DNA of 64,000 bases. Source: Streptomyces sp. ISL-1 (GTDB taxonomy: Bacteria > Actinomycetota > Actinomycetes > Streptomycetales > Streptomycetaceae). Shown piece after piece: positions 6,356 through 61,685 of this stretch (position 1 is the stretch's first letter; each line of letters opens with the position of its first letter). The notes beneath the pieces were generated by a model. It was not told the DNA's origin. It saw only the letters and a list, made by a program, of their open reading frames with translations, and searched no databases. Location: assembly GCF_018614585.1 (NCBI RefSeq), contig NZ_JAGGOI010000026.1, forward strand, positions 1-64,000. The letters are read 5' to 3'. The translations under genes and the position numbers were made by a program.

Positions 6356-6398
6356 GGGCGGCCATGCGTTCAGCCGCGGCGGGCGGCCATGCGTTCAG
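6356..6398. repeat. 18-bp direct repeat
   Basis: GGGCGGCCATGCGTTCAG occurs exactly twice with a 25-base period, separated by CCGCGGC. The copies are perfect. They sit between the YCII gene and the coding remnant. Confidence 0.8.
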
Positions 6399-6446
6399 GT
6401 GCCGGGGCGCGTCGCCCGGGACCGGGGGTGAGGTACCGGGTGAGGT

Positions 6447-6740
6447 TCAGCCCGTGAGCGGCAACCCCGTGCAGTTCTCCGCCAGTTCGGCCGCGGCGTG
6501 CGGCGAGGTCGCCACGCGGTTGAGTGGGAGAGCTGCAGACGGGTATCGAACGCGGACCGGGCCGGATCGGTGTGCAGCATCGTGGTCATGGAGTACGAGA
6601 AGTGCTCGGCCCGCCGGACGCGGCGCAGGCACGTGTCGGAGAAGGCCTCGAGCAGCCCGGTCGAGCCGGTGTCCGGCCGGAACTGTCGCTCACCGCCGTC
6701 GGCGAAGCCGCGCTTCACGCATATCCCGACGGCCTGATGT
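6447..6740 (-). pseudogene. Unidentified coding remnant with a frameshift
   Basis: On the minus strand, codons from about 6740 down to 6550 have almost exclusively G/C third positions and read, among others, [16 protein letters not shown] and [17 protein letters not shown]; near 6545 the coding-like signal moves to another frame that continues [20 protein letters not shown] and ends with a TGA at 6447-6449. Neither part has its own start signal, and the upstream end runs into the icd terminator. This looks like the 3' remnant of a degraded gene with a one- or two-base indel. I do not recognise the family. The alternative is a chance high-GC3 segment. Confidence 0.35.
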
Positions 6741-15867: not shown

Positions 15868-16647
15868 TCAGGCAGTCAACTTCGCCGTGTGGCGGGCGAA
15901 TCCGCTGGTCTGCCAGGTGCTGCCGTCGGCATTGACCGCAAAGCCCTCGGTATCGGGCAGCTCCTCCAGCCAGTCCCGGGCCCGCCCGCCCATGGCGTAC
16001 GCGGCGGTCGCCCGGGCGTCCGCACGGGTCAGCCCCGGGCAGACGACGGTCATCGACGCCAGGACCTCGGCGGGTGGGCGGCCGGTGTGCGGGTCGAGAA
16101 TGTGACAGCCGCGCTCGGCCGGGCCCGATGTGGCGACGGCGAGGCCCTCGTCGGCCTCGATCACCGTAACGAGCTCGCCAGGGTGCAGCGGGTCACTGAC
16201 GCCCACCCGCCAGTGGCCGCCGTACAGCTGGATGTCGCCGCCTCCATTGAGGCACACCGAATCCGCACCGGACGAGGCGAGCATGCGGACCGCGCACTCC
16301 ACCGCCCAGCCCTTGACCAGACCGGTCGGATCGAGCCGGCCGGCGTAGTGGGCGGTGAACCAGCCGTCGCTCTCCCGCTCCGCGTCCGCGCACAGATCGA
16401 GCACCTCGGCGACCTCGGTGACACAGTCTCCGAGGGAGAGTTCGCCGCGGGCCAGTCGGCTGAGCTGGCTGCTGGGACGGTACGTCGAGAAGATCTCGTC
16501 CACGCGGTGCAGACCGGCCACGGCGGCGGCGAGTCCGGCGCGCACCCTGGGGGAAGTGCCGCTGTCTCCGATCCGGATGTCGAACGAGAAGACCGTCCCC
16601 ATGGAGTGCTCGACATGGCGCAGGCGTTCTTGGCCGGCCGGCATCAC
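15868..16647 (-). CDS. FAD:protein FMN transferase (ApbE family)
   Basis: A 259-residue ApbE-family flavin transferase, which attaches FMN from FAD covalently to a threonine or serine of FMN-binding domains. Typical motifs: HVEHSMGTVFSFDIR at the start, LDPTGLVKGWAVE, SVCLNGGGDIQLYG, and the metal-binding ADARATAAYAMG. No lipobox or signal is visible, so the protein may act in the cytoplasm or be exported otherwise. It overlaps the upstream FMN-binding gene: GTG at 16647 shares GTGA with its stop, and an ATG follows immediately at 16644, so either may be used. The obvious substrate is the neighbouring double FMN-binding protein. Confidence 0.9.
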   Translation of the reverse strand: MMPAGQERLRHVEHSMGTVFSFDIRIGDSGTSPRVRAGLAAAVAGLHRVDEIFSTYRPSSQLSRLARGELSLGDCVTEVAEVLDLCADAERESDGWFTAHYAGRLDPTGLVKGWAVECAVRMLASSGADSVCLNGGGDIQLYGGHWRVGVSDPLHPGELVTVIEADEGLAVATSGPAERGCHILDPHTGRPPAEVLASMTVVCPGLTRADARATAAYAMGGRARDWLEELPDTEGFAVNADGSTWQTSGFARHTAKLTA

Positions 16648-17567
16648 AGGCCCGCTTTGTCGAGGGCGCTCTGCAGGGACTTGATGTAGCCCTCGCTGGT
16701 GTAGCTGGCGCCGGAAACGGCGTCGATCTGCGCACTCTGTGCCCTGACCGCCGCCTGGTTCAGTTTGGGCACAGCGTTGGCGGCGATCTGCTTGCTGTTG
16801 GGGTCGGAGGAAGGTGTCTTGACGGCGTCGGCCGCGGTGACCTTGCCGCCGCCGACCGTGATCCTGACCTGCACCGGGCCGTACTGGGTGTCGGCCACAT
16901 CGCCGAGGACGGTCTTCGCCGCCGGGGCGTCGTCGGAGCCGGAACCCGAGCCCGAGCCGGTACCCGATCCGGTACCGGAGCCCGAACTCGAACCGGAGCC
17001 TGAGCCCCCTCCGGGCTGAGTCCCTGCCCCGGGTTGTGCCCCGGCCTGCGCGCCGGATCCATCGCTGCCGGATTCGCCGGCAGCAGAGCCTGCCGCCTCT
17101 GCCGCCCCGGCCTTGTCGAGTGCGCTCTGCAGGGACTTGATATAGCCCTCGCTGGTGTAGCTGGCCCCGGAGACCGTGTCGATCCGCGCGCCCTGCGCCG
17201 TCACCACGGCCTGGTTGAGCTTGGGGATCGCGTCGGCGGCGATCTGCCGGCTCCTGGCGTCGGCGCTGGGCGCCTTCACCGCCTGCGCCCCGGTGATTCT
17301 GCCGCCGCTGAGGGTGAGCTGGACCTGGACGTCGCCGTACTGCGTGCCGGCGACGTCACCGAGCACGGTCTGTGCCCCCGCGGCCGCGGCCCCGGTCCCG
17401 GCGGACGCCGAGCCGGCGGGCGGCACCTGAGAGCCGGCCTGCACCGCCCCCGCCACGGTGTTACCCGGTTGCTTCAGTGCGAGCAGCAGGACGACACCTG
17501 ACACGGTGGCGGCTGCGCCGATCATGATCCGGCGAATCGGATGTTTCCTCTTCAAGGACGGCCTCAC
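16644..17567 (-). CDS. Exported protein with two FMN-binding domains
   Basis: A 307-residue protein: an N-terminal membrane anchor or signal (RRIMIGAAATVSGVVLLLAL), then FMN-binding domain 1 (about 65-150), a 60-residue Gly/Ser/Ala-rich linker, and domain 2 (about 213-307). Both domains end in the same sequence, VSGASYTSEGYIKSLQSALD, containing the predicted flavinylation site (threonine of SGASYT). The two copies are nearly identical even at DNA level, so the duplication is recent or maintained by conversion. It sits between a ferric-reductase-like gene and ApbE with ATGA-type overlaps, so it probably carries covalently bound FMN and relays electrons outside the membrane. Confidence 0.88.
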   Translation of the reverse strand: MRPSLKRKHPIRRIMIGAAATVSGVVLLLALKQPGNTVAGAVQAGSQVPPAGSASAGTGAAAAGAQTVLGDVAGTQYGDVQVQLTLSGGRITGAQAVKAPSADARSRQIAADAIPKLNQAVVTAQGARIDTVSGASYTSEGYIKSLQSALDKAGAAEAAGSAAGESGSDGSGAQAGAQPGAGTQPGGGSGSGSSSGSGTGSGTGSGSGSGSDDAPAAKTVLGDVADTQYGPVQVRITVGGGKVTAADAVKTPSSDPNSKQIAANAVPKLNQAAVRAQSAQIDAVSGASYTSEGYIKSLQSALDKAGL

Positions 17568-58317: not shown

Positions 58318-60294
58318 GTGTCAGACGTCCGTGTGATCATCCAACGCGATTCCGAGCGGGAAGAACGCGTGGTGACCACGGGCACCACGGCAGCCGAACT
58401 CTTCGCCGGCGAGCGCACCGTCGTCGCCGCCCGCGTCGCCGGTGAGCTCAGGGACCTCGCGTACGAGATCAAGGACGGCGAGGAGGTCGAGCCCGTCGAG
58501 ATCTCCTCCGAGGACGGGCTGAACATCCTGCGCCACTCCACCGCGCACGTCATGGCGCAGGCCGTGCAGGAGCTCTTCCCCGAGGCCAAGCTCGGCATCG
58601 GCCCGCCGGTCAAGGACGGCTTCTACTACGACTTCGATGTCGAGAAGCCCTTCCACCCCGATGACCTCAAGGCCATCGAGAAGAAGATGCAGGAGATCCA
58701 GAAGCGGGGCCAGCGCTTCTCGCGGCGTGTCGTCACCGACGAGGCCGCCCGCGCGGAGCTCGCCGACGAGCCGTACAAACTGGAGCTGATCGGGATCAAG
58801 GGCTCCGCGTCCTCCGACGACGGCGCGGACGTCGAGGTCGGCGCGGGCGAGCTGACGATCTACGACAACCTTGACCCCAAGACCGGCGACCTGTGCTGGA
58901 AGGACCTCTGCCGCGGTCCGCACCTGCCCACCACCCGCAACATCCCGGCGTTCAAGCTGATGCGCAACGCCGCCGCGTACTGGCGCGGCAGCGAGAAGAA
59001 CCCCATGCTGCAGCGCATCTACGGCACCGCGTGGCCCTCCAAGGAAGAGCTCAAGGCGCACCTCGAATTCCTCGCCGAGGCCGAGAAGCGCGACCACCGC
59101 AAGCTCGGCAGCGAGCTGGACCTCTTCTCGATCCCGGAGCAGATCGGCTCCGGCCTCGCCGTCTTCCACCCCAAGGGCGGCGTCGTACGCCGCGTCATGG
59201 AGGACTACTCCCGCAAGCGGCACGAGGAAGAGGGGTACGAGTTCGTCTACACCCCGCACGCCACCAAGGGGAAGCTCTTCGAGACCTCCGGCCACCTGGA
59301 CTGGTACGCCGAGGGCATGTACCCGCCCATGCAGCTCGACGAGGGCACGGACTACTACCTCAAGCCCATGAACTGCCCGATGCACAACCTGATCTTCGAC
59401 GCGCGCGGCCGGTCCTATCGTGAACTGCCGCTGCGCCTCTTCGAGTTCGGGACCGTGTACCGGTACGAGAAGTCGGGCGTCGTGCACGGCCTGACCCGGG
59501 CCCGCGGCTTCACCCAGGACGACGCGCACATCTACTGCACCAAGGAACAGATGGCGGACGAGCTCGACTCGACGCTCACCTTCGTGCTGAACCTGCTGCG
59601 CGACTACGGACTCACCGACTTCTATCTGGAGCTGTCCACCAAGGACCCGGAGAAGTTCGTCGGTTCGGACGAGGTCTGGGAGGAGGCCACCGAGACCCTG
59701 CGCAAGGTGGCCGAGAAGCAGGGCCTGCCGCTGGTCCCGGACCCGGGCGGCGCGGCGTTCTACGGGCCGAAGATCTCCGTGCAGGCGAAGGACGCCATCG
59801 GCCGCACCTGGCAGATGTCCACCGTCCAGCTGGACTTCAACCTGCCGGAGCGCTTCAACCTGGAGTACACCGGTCCGGACGGCTCCAAGCAGCGCCCTGT
59901 CATGATCCACCGCGCGCTGTTCGGCTCGATCGAGCGGTTCTTCGCGGTGCTGCTCGAGCACTACGCGGGCGCGTTCCCGGCCTGGCTCTCGCCGGTGCAG
60001 GCGGTCGGCATTCCGGTCGGAGACGCCCACGTTCCGTATCTGCAGGAGTTCGCCGCCGAGGCGAAGAAGAAGGGTCTGCGGGTCGAGGTCGACTCTTCCT
60101 CGGACCGGATGCAGAAGAAGATCAGGAACCAGCAGAAGTTGAAGGTCCCGTTCATGATCATCGTCGGCGACGACGACATGAACGCGGGCACGGTGTCCTT
60201 CCGCTACCGCGACGGTTCGCAGGAGAACGGGATTCCGCGCGACCTAGCCCTGGCGAAGCTCGTTGATGTGGTGGAGCGCCGGGTCCAGGTGTGA
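58318..60294 (+). CDS. thrS: Threonyl-tRNA synthetase
   Basis: A 658-residue class II aminoacyl-tRNA synthetase that charges tRNA-Thr. Order of domains: TGS (1-65), editing domain with the zinc-type motif [19 protein letters not shown] and CRGPHLPTT, catalytic core (about 240-540) with motif 2-type [33 protein letters not shown] (zinc cysteine) and motif 3 [19 protein letters not shown], and C-terminal anticodon-binding domain ([20 protein letters not shown]). GTG 58318 follows CAGGAGAGACCG. Essential gene; transcribed alone. Confidence 0.97.
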
Positions 60295-60295
60295 C

Positions 60296-60386
60296 GTACG
60301 CCCTGCGTATGCGGGGGTGACCGCGGGATTCCGCGGTGCGACGCGCTGGCGAATCTCTGCTCCCCGCGCACGCGGGGATCGGTCCC
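60296..60386. CRISPR. Possible two-repeat CRISPR remnant (type I-E-like)
   Basis: Two 29-base units, 60296-60324 (GTACGCCCTGCG, then TATGCGGGGGTGACCGC) and 60357-60386 (CTGCTCCCCGCGCACGCGGGG, then ATCGGTCC), are separated by exactly 32 bases, the repeat/spacer geometry of type I-E arrays. Both resemble actinomycete I-E repeats with a CCCC/GCGGGG stem. The first copy is degenerate (about 20 of 29 positions shared). No cas gene lies in the window. A chance run of GC-rich hairpins is the alternative, since the gap also holds an ACCGCGG / CCGCGGT hairpin. Confidence 0.35.
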
Positions 60387-60411
60387 CGGGAACATCAGTT
60401 TCCCGGGGACC
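60381..60411. terminator. Terminator between thrS and the channel gene
   Basis: Perfect 12-bp stem GGTCCCCGGGAA / TTCCCGGGGACC with a seven-base loop. It covers the last codons of the convergent channel gene (stop at 60395). Confidence 0.75.
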
Positions 60412-61060
60412 TCTTCTCGTCCTCCCGCGCGAAGACCTGCAGCAGCCAGGACGAGAACGACCCCGTCACCGCGCCCAGCAGCGCCAGCCCGCAGCCCATC
60501 AGCACCACCGCGATGACCCGGCCGAGGGGGGTCACCGGCGTGACATCCCCGTATCCCACCGTGGTCAGTGTCGCGCAGGCCCACCACAGCGAGTCACCAA
60601 AAGTGCGGATGGTGGAGCCCGGGGCGGAGCGCTCCTGCTGGTAGACGGCGAGCGCGCTCGAGTAGCCGAGCAGTACCGCCGACATGCTCGCGTAAGCGAT
60701 CACGCGCGCGTGCAGGCTCAGCCGCGGCTCGCCGCGCCGCCGCTGCACCGCGTTGTAGGCCCGCACCATGCGCACCGGCCGCAGCAGCGGCAGTACGACC
60801 ACAACGGTGTCCAGCCAGTGGGTGCGCACGAAGCGCAGTCCCTCTCCGCTCAGCTTCAGCCGCACCGCGTAGTCGAGCGCGAACATCAGCCACATGAGCA
60901 GCGTCAGTACGAGGGCGAGGTTCCGCAGCACCGGGTCGGCGTCCTGCGCCAGCACGACCACCGTGTATCCGCCCAGGAAGAGCAGCGAGGCCACGAAGAG
61001 GGGCACCTCGATGCGCTGCTCCCAGCGCTGCTGCCGGTCGGCGGCATCGTTGACGTCCAT
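60395..61060 (-). CDS. Potassium channel-family protein (voltage-sensor-like)
   Basis: A 221-residue channel with about six helices. The selectivity filter TTVGYGDVTPVTPLGR is a canonical K+ filter, and the pore helix precedes it (FGDSLWWACATL). The preceding part is voltage-sensor-like, with an S4-type helix carrying spaced arginines (VLPLLRPVRMVRAYNAVQRR). It probably forms a homotetramer mediating K+ flux across the cytoplasmic membrane. No RCK/TrkA domain is attached. ATG 61060 begins the protein. Convergent with thrS. Confidence 0.92.
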   Translation of the reverse strand: MDVNDAADRQQRWEQRIEVPLFVASLLFLGGYTVVVLAQDADPVLRNLALVLTLLMWLMFALDYAVRLKLSGEGLRFVRTHWLDTVVVVLPLLRPVRMVRAYNAVQRRRGEPRLSLHARVIAYASMSAVLLGYSSALAVYQQERSAPGSTIRTFGDSLWWACATLTTVGYGDVTPVTPLGRVIAVVLMGCGLALLGAVTGSFSSWLLQVFAREDEKRSPGN

Positions 61061-61127
61061 CGGCCCAGCATCGCGGCCCCACTGTGCGTCTCAGCCCCGA
61101 CGACACGCCGCGTACGGGCGAAGTCAT

Positions 61128-61685
61128 ATGCTGCACAACATGACGCTTGAGCCTGAGCAGCAGATCGGAGTGGGGACGCAGGACGCGTTCCAGCGCCTGT
61201 GGACGCCCCACCGCATGGCGTACATCCAGGGGGAGAACAAGCCGACCGGACCGGGGGCCGACGACGGCTGTCCCTTCTGCGCGATCCCCGCCATGTCGGA
61301 CGAGGACGGTCTCGTCATCGCCCGCGGATCACGCGTCTACGCGGTGCTCAACCTCTACCCGTACAACGGCGGGCACTTGATGGTGGTCCCCTTCCGCCAT
61401 GTCGCCGACTACACCGAGCTGGACGACGCGGAGACGGCCGAGCTCGCGACGTTCACCAAGCGCGCGATGACCGCGCTGCGCAAGGCCGCCGGCGCGCACG
61501 GCTTCAACATCGGCATGAACCAGGGCGCGGTCGCCGGCGCCGGCATCGCCGCGCATCTTCACCAGCACGTCGTGCCGAGATGGGGCGGGGACACCAACTT
61601 CATGCCGGTCGTCGGACACACCAAGGTGCTGCCCCAGCTCCTTGCCGATACGCGCAAGATGCTGGCAGAGGCCTGGCCCGCCTGA
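61128..61685 (+). CDS. HIT-family hydrolase/transferase (Ap4A phosphorylase-like)
   Basis: A 185-residue HIT protein. The histidine triad is AGIAAHLHQHVVPRWGGDTN (HxHxH); upstream are CPFCAIPAMSDEDGLVIARG (zinc CxxC), VLNLYPYNGGHLMVVPFRHV and FNIGMNQGAVAG. This is the actinobacterial AP-4-A phosphorylase-like branch; it cleaves nucleotide di- or polyphosphate. The start is uncertain: ATG 61128 or ATG 61140 (a CATATG -10-like sequence precedes the latter). It lies divergently from the channel gene. Confidence 0.88.
   Translation: MLHNMTLEPEQQIGVGTQDAFQRLWTPHRMAYIQGENKPTGPGADDGCPFCAIPAMSDEDGLVIARGSRVYAVLNLYPYNGGHLMVVPFRHVADYTELDDAETAELATFTKRAMTALRKAAGAHGFNIGMNQGAVAGAGIAAHLHQHVVPRWGGDTNFMPVVGHTKVLPQLLADTRKMLAEAWPA

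Follow-up and report, generated by a model that had tools for sequence, protein, structure and literature searches.

A solitary one-spacer CRISPR unit behind thrS in Streptomyces: decayed member of a family of putative guides against other alleles of the neighboring gene

What is a pair of CRISPR-like repeats, with a single spacer between them, doing directly behind the essential gene for a threonyl-tRNA synthetase? The question is raised by a stretch of 64,000 nucleotides from Streptomyces sp. ISL-1 (assembly GCF_018614585.1, contig NZ_JAGGOI010000026.1, positions 1 to 64,000 of the forward strand), here called the window, to which coordinates refer unless another contig is given. In it, thrS lies on the plus strand at 58318-60294 (Pfam tRNA-synt_2b, HGTP_anticodon and tRNA_SAD) with its TGA at 60292-60294, and one base further on begins the first repeat, R1 (60296-60324), a degenerate repeat of type I-E. 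It is followed on the same strand by a single 32-nt spacer (60325-60356) and a second I-E repeat, R2 (60357-60385). The phase from R1 to R2 is 61 bp, and an initial annotation of this DNA had these coordinates right, i.e. units at 60296 and 60357 in 61-bp phase around a 32-base spacer. The folding of R2 beats that of 200/200 shuffles; the folding of R1 is weak and was equaled by 21/200. A separate hairpin stands downstream and overlaps the 3' end of R2. It consists of a perfect 12-bp inverted repeat and a T/C-rich stretch (60381-60411, plus strand), is likely the terminator of thrS, and bears both of the only two matches of an Rfam scan, each below threshold. Beyond lie a convergent ion-channel gene (60395-61060, minus strand, Pfam Ion_trans_2), which is context and outside the element, and a HIT-domain gene (60894-61685, plus strand, Pfam HIT), which in some relatives (L107, L150) is the target of the mini-array. 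The locus is not virus- or plasmid-borne, the unit being situated between thrS and the ion-channel or HIT gene, and a 601-bp query around it has matches in 149 of 150 congeners, many of them covering both flanking genes. No cas genes were recognized by eye in the list of open reading frames from 57.5 to 64 kb. In another genome (L040, G025:C1:6132500-6136100) an insert of about 2.9 kb is present between thrS and the ion-channel gene, and it opens with a solo I-E-like hairpin past the thrS stop.

The repeats of the window unit are of the I-E type, yet there is only one spacer and this spacer resembles thrS. It matches thrS at 60229-60260 in 24 of 32 bases, the runner-up place reaching 18. Regarded as a protospacer on the plus strand, this site agrees with the spacer throughout the seed (7/7) and at 20 of 25 paired positions, and the PAM position before it (60226-60228, plus strand) holds AAC, with AA present in 56/56 thrS genes of non-carriers. 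A memory of phage or plasmid was dropped as an explanation of the spacer on its resemblance to thrS. A second copy of thrS as the target is excluded in this genome, where thrS is single and a protein search returned two other matches, both weak (27-34% over part of the length). The initial annotation spoke of an orphan or decayed remnant, which holds for the window, where the unit is solitary and decayed; it overlooked that the spacer is thrS-like and that the unit is one of many solitary one-spacer guides aimed at neighboring genes. The window guide agrees with the best non-carrier thrS at 22/25 paired positions and with its own thrS, whose PAM and full seed are intact, at 20/25; this thrS has 4 differences at the guide site compared with a non-carrier mean of 3.71. 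Judged by its sequence, the window copy is a decayed family member, with a guide that matches no thrS closely. It distinguishes weakly between its own allele and others, and the claim made below rests on the evidence from the family, not on this copy.

Ordinary I-E arrays are present elsewhere in the same genome. A BLAST search with R2 recovers them on contig C26 (G000:C26, at about 194 kb and about 204 kb, E down to 3.8e-6), and their repeat is identical to R2 at 25/29 and to R1 at 18/29 positions, in accordance with the earlier assignment of both units to type I-E. Relatives carry similar repeats too, so the alignment that had been proposed as a check found kin of the unit both in its own genome and outside it, and not the lack of similar repeats that was named as speaking against a CRISPR origin. 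The two arrays, at 6361-6700 and 15967-16700 of region L039 (G000:C26:188000-206500), count 6 and 12 repeats when matched loosely, and their phase is 61 bp except for single steps of 60 and 77. Before the first stand cas1 and a fragment of cas6e, and the approximately 9 kb between them hold, as judged by eye, non-cas genes, including those for an alanine-rich coiled-coil protein and a VCBS-like trypsin protein. Genome-wide, Cas6e was found only as a C-terminal fragment, on C26; Cse1 and Cas7e had no match in the assembly, which is 91% complete, and a stretch close to the C26 array that had been taken for a piece of cas3 has no match in Pfam and is not claimed as such. The I-E locus of this genome seems to be split or broken, because Cas1 is kept, Cas6e is a C-terminal fragment and Cse1 and Cas7e are without match, and since the genome is 91% complete an absent cas gene might simply be unassembled. 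The suggestion that the unit is still used by Cas proteins encoded elsewhere found no support in this genome, which, at that completeness, yielded a cas6e fragment and cas1 only.

The repeat pair in the window is not a product of chance, because relatives show such a pair at the corresponding place, and this candidate was dropped. A pure terminator, with a conserved terminator having been the alternative offered by the annotation, was dropped as well: the unit recurs in relatives, and the terminator is the separate hairpin downstream. By a pattern search, an I-E-like hairpin exactly behind the thrS stop was found in 41 of 392 congeners. Forty of these 41 genomes were read (G010 was left out), with a convincing second repeat in 17 of the 40 loci; G090 and G311 gave no thrS by the motif used. 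A loose two-repeat rule accepted 23 of 39 loci. We set aside L112, L117, L129, L130, L132 and L134, in which the core of the second "repeat" has 3-5 mismatches and the "spacer" runs into the terminator, as well as L107 (HIT target) and L126 (decayed, no clear target), which left 15 thrS guides. Scanning the named genome collection for the pattern yielded 25 loci, 24 from Streptomyces and one from Actinacidiphila, which overlap partly with the congener set, and added 11 thrS guides, all distinct, as well as a HIT guide (L150); the spacer of L149, whose own PAM is lost, equals that of L144 and was counted once. Deduplication leaves 26 distinct thrS guides, two HIT guides (L107 and L150) and the decayed unit L126. 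These thrS guides correspond to 11 sites in thrS; 22 guides fall on the coding strand and four on the opposite one. More thrS-linked units, e.g. in G454 and G414, were seen by eye among 293 genomes sampled from the order, where the sole one recognized outside the genus was in G583, with the Actinacidiphila spacer. Solo I-E-like hairpins were also observed at the exact position of the mini-array with the terminator directly after (L099, L100, L103-L105, L115, L118-L120, L124, L125, L133 and L136), and their appearance suggests that R1 and R2 recombined and the array collapsed.

The spacers of this family were compared with a panel of 55-56 thrS genes from non-carriers, 40 without a repeat at the spot and 16 with a solo repeat. 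In the consensus of this panel, AA stands directly before the protospacer at 11/11 sites, while the background of this dinucleotide in thrS is 2.2%. In type I-E systems every sixth base of the guide is left unpaired with the target. Mismatches between spacers and non-carrier consensus amount to 72/130 at positions 6, 12, 18, 24 and 30 and to 69/650 elsewhere; by position modulo 6, phases 1-5 have 7, 15, 30, 8 and 9, each out of 130. Codon wobble, which itself has a period of three, fails to account for this pattern, because mismatches at coding-strand sites occur in 62/110 cases at 6n and in 25/110 at 6n+3, both of them wobble positions, at similar panel diversity (0.241 and 0.188, respectively). 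Seven units upstream of ffh, compared with a panel of 30 non-carrier genes, have mismatches at 24/35 sixth positions and 31/175 others. Such a pattern would be expected if the thrS units are guides for type I-E Cascade. It is hardly credible that we are dealing with an ordinary short orphan array or a structural terminator whose resemblance to thrS is accidental: the I-E repeats, the 61-bp phase and the terminator hairpin overlapping R2 would suit such a view, but the resemblance recurs in 26 distinct arrays and at 11 sites with a PAM. Chance resemblance is refuted for the family, while the window copy by itself would be ambiguous.

Sequence comparison indicates that the guides fit the thrS of other species rather than the copy to which they are linked. 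In the 24 carrier genes counted (L144 and L162 are not included), at paired positions where the carrier thrS departs from the consensus, the spacer has the consensus base in 77 cases, the carrier base in 19 and a third base in 8; within the seed the counts are 25 for the consensus and 2 for the carrier. The AA of the PAM is lost in 8/24 carriers. The alteration of the linked gene is specific to the site, with 5.0 carrier differences at the guide's own site and 2.45 at the ten remaining sites in these genes (a contrast this large arose in 0 of 100,000 permutations), and, for PAM and seed, 1.79 and 0.61 (2 of 100,000 permutations). Divergence from the consensus at the guide site is above the non-carrier mean in 24/24 carriers, though barely so in the window copy and in L158, which has 1 difference against a mean of 0.85. 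If a thrS is called targetable when it has an AA PAM, at least 6/7 of the seed and at least 21/25 paired positions, this holds for 1/24 carriers (L158) and for a mean of 58% of non-carriers, the latter share being 53% and 38% at stricter cut-offs; L158, with its fully targetable thrS, belongs to a genome without a Cas7e hit. A Poisson-binomial value for this contrast takes no account of kinship; in a kin-aware check, against the nearest relative without that guide, the score was 14 to 0, ten comparisons being tied (sign test, p = 1.2e-4). Carriers whose guides share a site spare one another, only 2/51 pairs being targetable, compared with 272/568 for carriers of guides to different sites. By these criteria the linked allele would be resistant and the other alleles sensitive.

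These results bear on autoregulation, in which the guide would let Cascade repress its own neighbor, or repress it by partial complementarity in the manner of CreA. A unit directly behind the thrS stop could be excised from the thrS transcript, the window copy, L114, L123 and L131 retain the PAM and most of the seed with mismatches in the middle or distal part only, and CreA, in the portion of PMC8501985 considered here, does act through partial complementarity. We nevertheless find autoregulation improbable, given the loss of the PAM in a third of the carrier genes (the 8/24 above), a seed reduced to 2-4 of 7 in L116, L128, L143, L148 and L161, spacers that track the non-carrier consensus and not the carrier sequence (77 vs 19), and a Cas7e hit absent from half of the carriers. 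Self-regulation as the general role was dropped on the lost PAMs and seeds and on spacers that follow the consensus.

Guides at this spot are also replaced. On the thrS tree the carrier state has changed at least 19 times and the site state at least 26 times. In the four sister species L121, L122, L128 and L154 the units occupy this one spot, each aimed at a different site. The guide of L122 fits thrS in the other three species and spares its own; L121 and L122 are fitted by the L128 guide, which leaves L128 itself and L154 alone. The guide from L121 matches L128 and L154, not L122; that from L154 matches, among the four, L122 only. Spacer turnover at the thrS spot is apparent from these comparisons. 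It tells against two further explanations. The first is that the guide serves the host as a barrier, destroying incoming foreign alleles so that the local gene is not replaced, in which case no selfish gain is needed. This draws on the same sequence evidence as the explanation that we prefer, i.e. guides that match other species and spare self, but gives no account of why the guide adjoins its target instead of residing in an ordinary array, nor of guide turnover at one spot between sister species, and we judge it unlikely. The second, which we think quite unlikely, is accident and escape: an ectopic spacer was taken from the carrier's own neighboring gene, the target was altered in the survivors, and the unit is now a functionless relic. 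It accounts for an AA PAM in the consensus at the time of capture, for the sparing of the linked allele, for the solo repeats as collapsed arrays and for the lack of Cas gene enrichment. A relic, however, has no cause to keep pairing with alleles that it does not meet while its sixth bases are near-randomized, and repeated capture from the adjoining gene at one spot in many lineages, as the minimum of 19 carrier-state changes implies, is left unaccounted for.

Cas7e was found in 14/30 carriers, 16/40 non-carriers and 13/22 genomes of the solo-repeat group, and the enrichment of Cascade in carriers that could be expected is absent in this search of one genome per species. Greater decay of guides in Cas7e-negative genomes, also expected, was not found, 10 of 18 better-matching guides being situated there. 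From these counts and the equal upkeep of guides we therefore conclude that carriers, as sampled with one genome per species, are independent of Cascade.

Similar units stand beside other genes. The two-repeat pattern detected units in 30 of 47 genomes scanned, out of 49 without a Cas7e hit. We picked by eye 34 places away from thrS, some of which may be parts of arrays; in 8/34 of these isolated units the spacer matches a gene within 1.5 kb beyond 200/200 shuffles (ffh in three, recN-like in two, DUF3817 in two and cobN in one), and in 26/34 no nearby gene is matched beyond shuffles. The places were ranked by paired positions, which favors mismatches at the sixth base, and a phase comparison of the eight units is biased because they were chosen by the same score. 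The phase counts given above for thrS and ffh are free of that ranking, the position of the sites having been set by the total number of matches with any member of the panel. To our knowledge the recN, cobN and DUF3817 genes are not known as essential, so a target need not be essential. Related guides in three species (L240, L252 and L259) cover the start-codon region of the recN-like gene; the PAM position of the carrier is ATG, and a part of the seed differs in each. Some isolated units (L248, L254, L260, L244 and others) fit the two-repeat pattern in both orientations, and L248 and L254 have CCCCGCCGACGCGGGG-like repeats and spacers without a nearby match.

Among the seven ffh carriers, the AA of the PAM is lost in three, L245, L246 and L249, where the share of AA in the panel is 43%, 100% and 90%, respectively. 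Pairing is well under that of the consensus in L251 and L260, and the carrier pairs better than the consensus in L241, L245 and L246. Where carrier and consensus differ, the spacer has the consensus base 20 times, the carrier base 12 times and neither 6 times, and in the seed the consensus base 4 times and the carrier base 5 times. Self-sparing at ffh thus appears partial and mixed by sequence. Just before ffh in another genome (G041:C212:192695-192859) there are two fragments similar to the start of ffh, one 94% over 85 bp and the other 79% over 91 bp on the other strand.

From all of this we consider it probable that the unit in relatives is a one-spacer I-E crRNA guide against the common allele of the adjoining gene, with the linked copy altered and spared. 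The alteration of the linked copy lies at the PAM, in the seed or in the middle of the guide match, and the window holds a decayed copy of such a unit. Against this reading speak the weak contrast in the window copy, the lack of Cas7e enrichment in carriers, the targetable thrS of L158, the mixed picture at ffh and the 26 isolated units that match no nearby gene. The comparisons suggest the role of an RNA-guided, self-sparing element acting against other alleles by homing or exclusion, and not that of a regulator or of ordinary immunity. We infer transcription, processing, cutting and an advantage in transmission as follows. The mini-array would be transcribed with or beside the neighboring gene, Cas6e would trim both repeats, and the guide would load into whichever Cascade-Cas3 the cell possesses. 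Another allele in the same cell, met through conjugation, other uptake of DNA or entry of the unit into a new strain, would be cut, and repair from the linked altered allele, or survival of it, would favor the block of altered gene and guide. Such action would be akin to that of a free-standing homing endonuclease, or of a natural cleave-and-rescue element on borrowed host CRISPR machinery. Homing or exclusion with a selfish gain has in our estimation about an even chance of being the true role; less falls to a host barrier or a functionless relic, and little to regulation.

By analogy, the closest precedent is probably that of the mini-CRISPR arrays of the Sulfolobales viruses SPV1 and SPV2, which, in the parts of PMC6858448 considered here, are virus-borne, have 1-2 spacers and no cas genes, and rely on host repeats. 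They target related genomes near the array, the orthologous sites of the carrier are mutated, and different spacers at the same position were taken as active spacer turnover (PMC6858448). The thrS family as a whole is like them in that relatives are targeted near the array and the carrier's own site is altered. The differences are that the SPV1/SPV2 arrays, as described there, are viral and have leaders, whereas the thrS units are found in bacterial chromosomes at core genes with one spacer and no array leader seen, and that in the thrS units the every-sixth-base signature and the site-specific alteration were measured genus-wide. CreA of CreTA, in the sections of PMC8501985 and PMC9458426 considered, has ectopic degenerate repeats around one guide and uses Cascade, and it shares with the thrS units a partial complementarity to nearby sequence. 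The gene that it represses, one for a small toxin RNA, belongs to its own module (PMC8501985, as far as considered), whereas thrS guides aim at a core protein gene and, unlike CreA as portrayed there, fit other alleles better than the linked one. The free-standing homing endonucleases of T4-like phages, as presented in the excerpt of PMC2988022 considered, are intergenic, sit hundreds to thousands of bases away from where they cut, and bring about the exclusion of the other allele. Both they and the thrS units adjoin the gene whose other allele is attacked; in the former, going by that excerpt, a protein nuclease acts and homing was demonstrated, while in the latter an RNA guide would act with host Cas and homing is put forward here. 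Among the open-access papers searched, no account of self-sparing mini-arrays in chromosomes beside core genes came up. Synthetic cleave-and-rescue gene drives combine a guide with a linked recoded copy of the target and have Cas inside the element. Units of the thrS type differ from them in being natural, in the absence of Cas from the element and in some targets that are not known to be essential.

Whether Streptomyces chromosomes harbor a whole class of RNA-guided selfish mini-CRISPRs, which would hijack resident I-E Cas proteins against other alleles of the adjoining gene, home into new strains with an immune linked copy and have their guides replaced repeatedly as alleles gain immunity, a natural parallel to homing or cleave-and-rescue gene drives, is a broader proposal that we advance tentatively and hold to be somewhat doubtful. 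If true, CRISPR guides would be weapons between alleles of core genes in bacterial chromosomes, beyond immune memory or regulation, and a natural process resembling gene drive, guided by RNA, would become directly testable. An answer would be offered to the remark in PMC6858448, in the part considered, that the origins and consequences of the proximity of array and target in mini-arrays of archaeal viruses are unclear. Some solitary repeats and apparently self-targeting spacers would be explained, and there would be a mechanism for the site-particular alteration of thrS and ffh and for limited gene flow between species.
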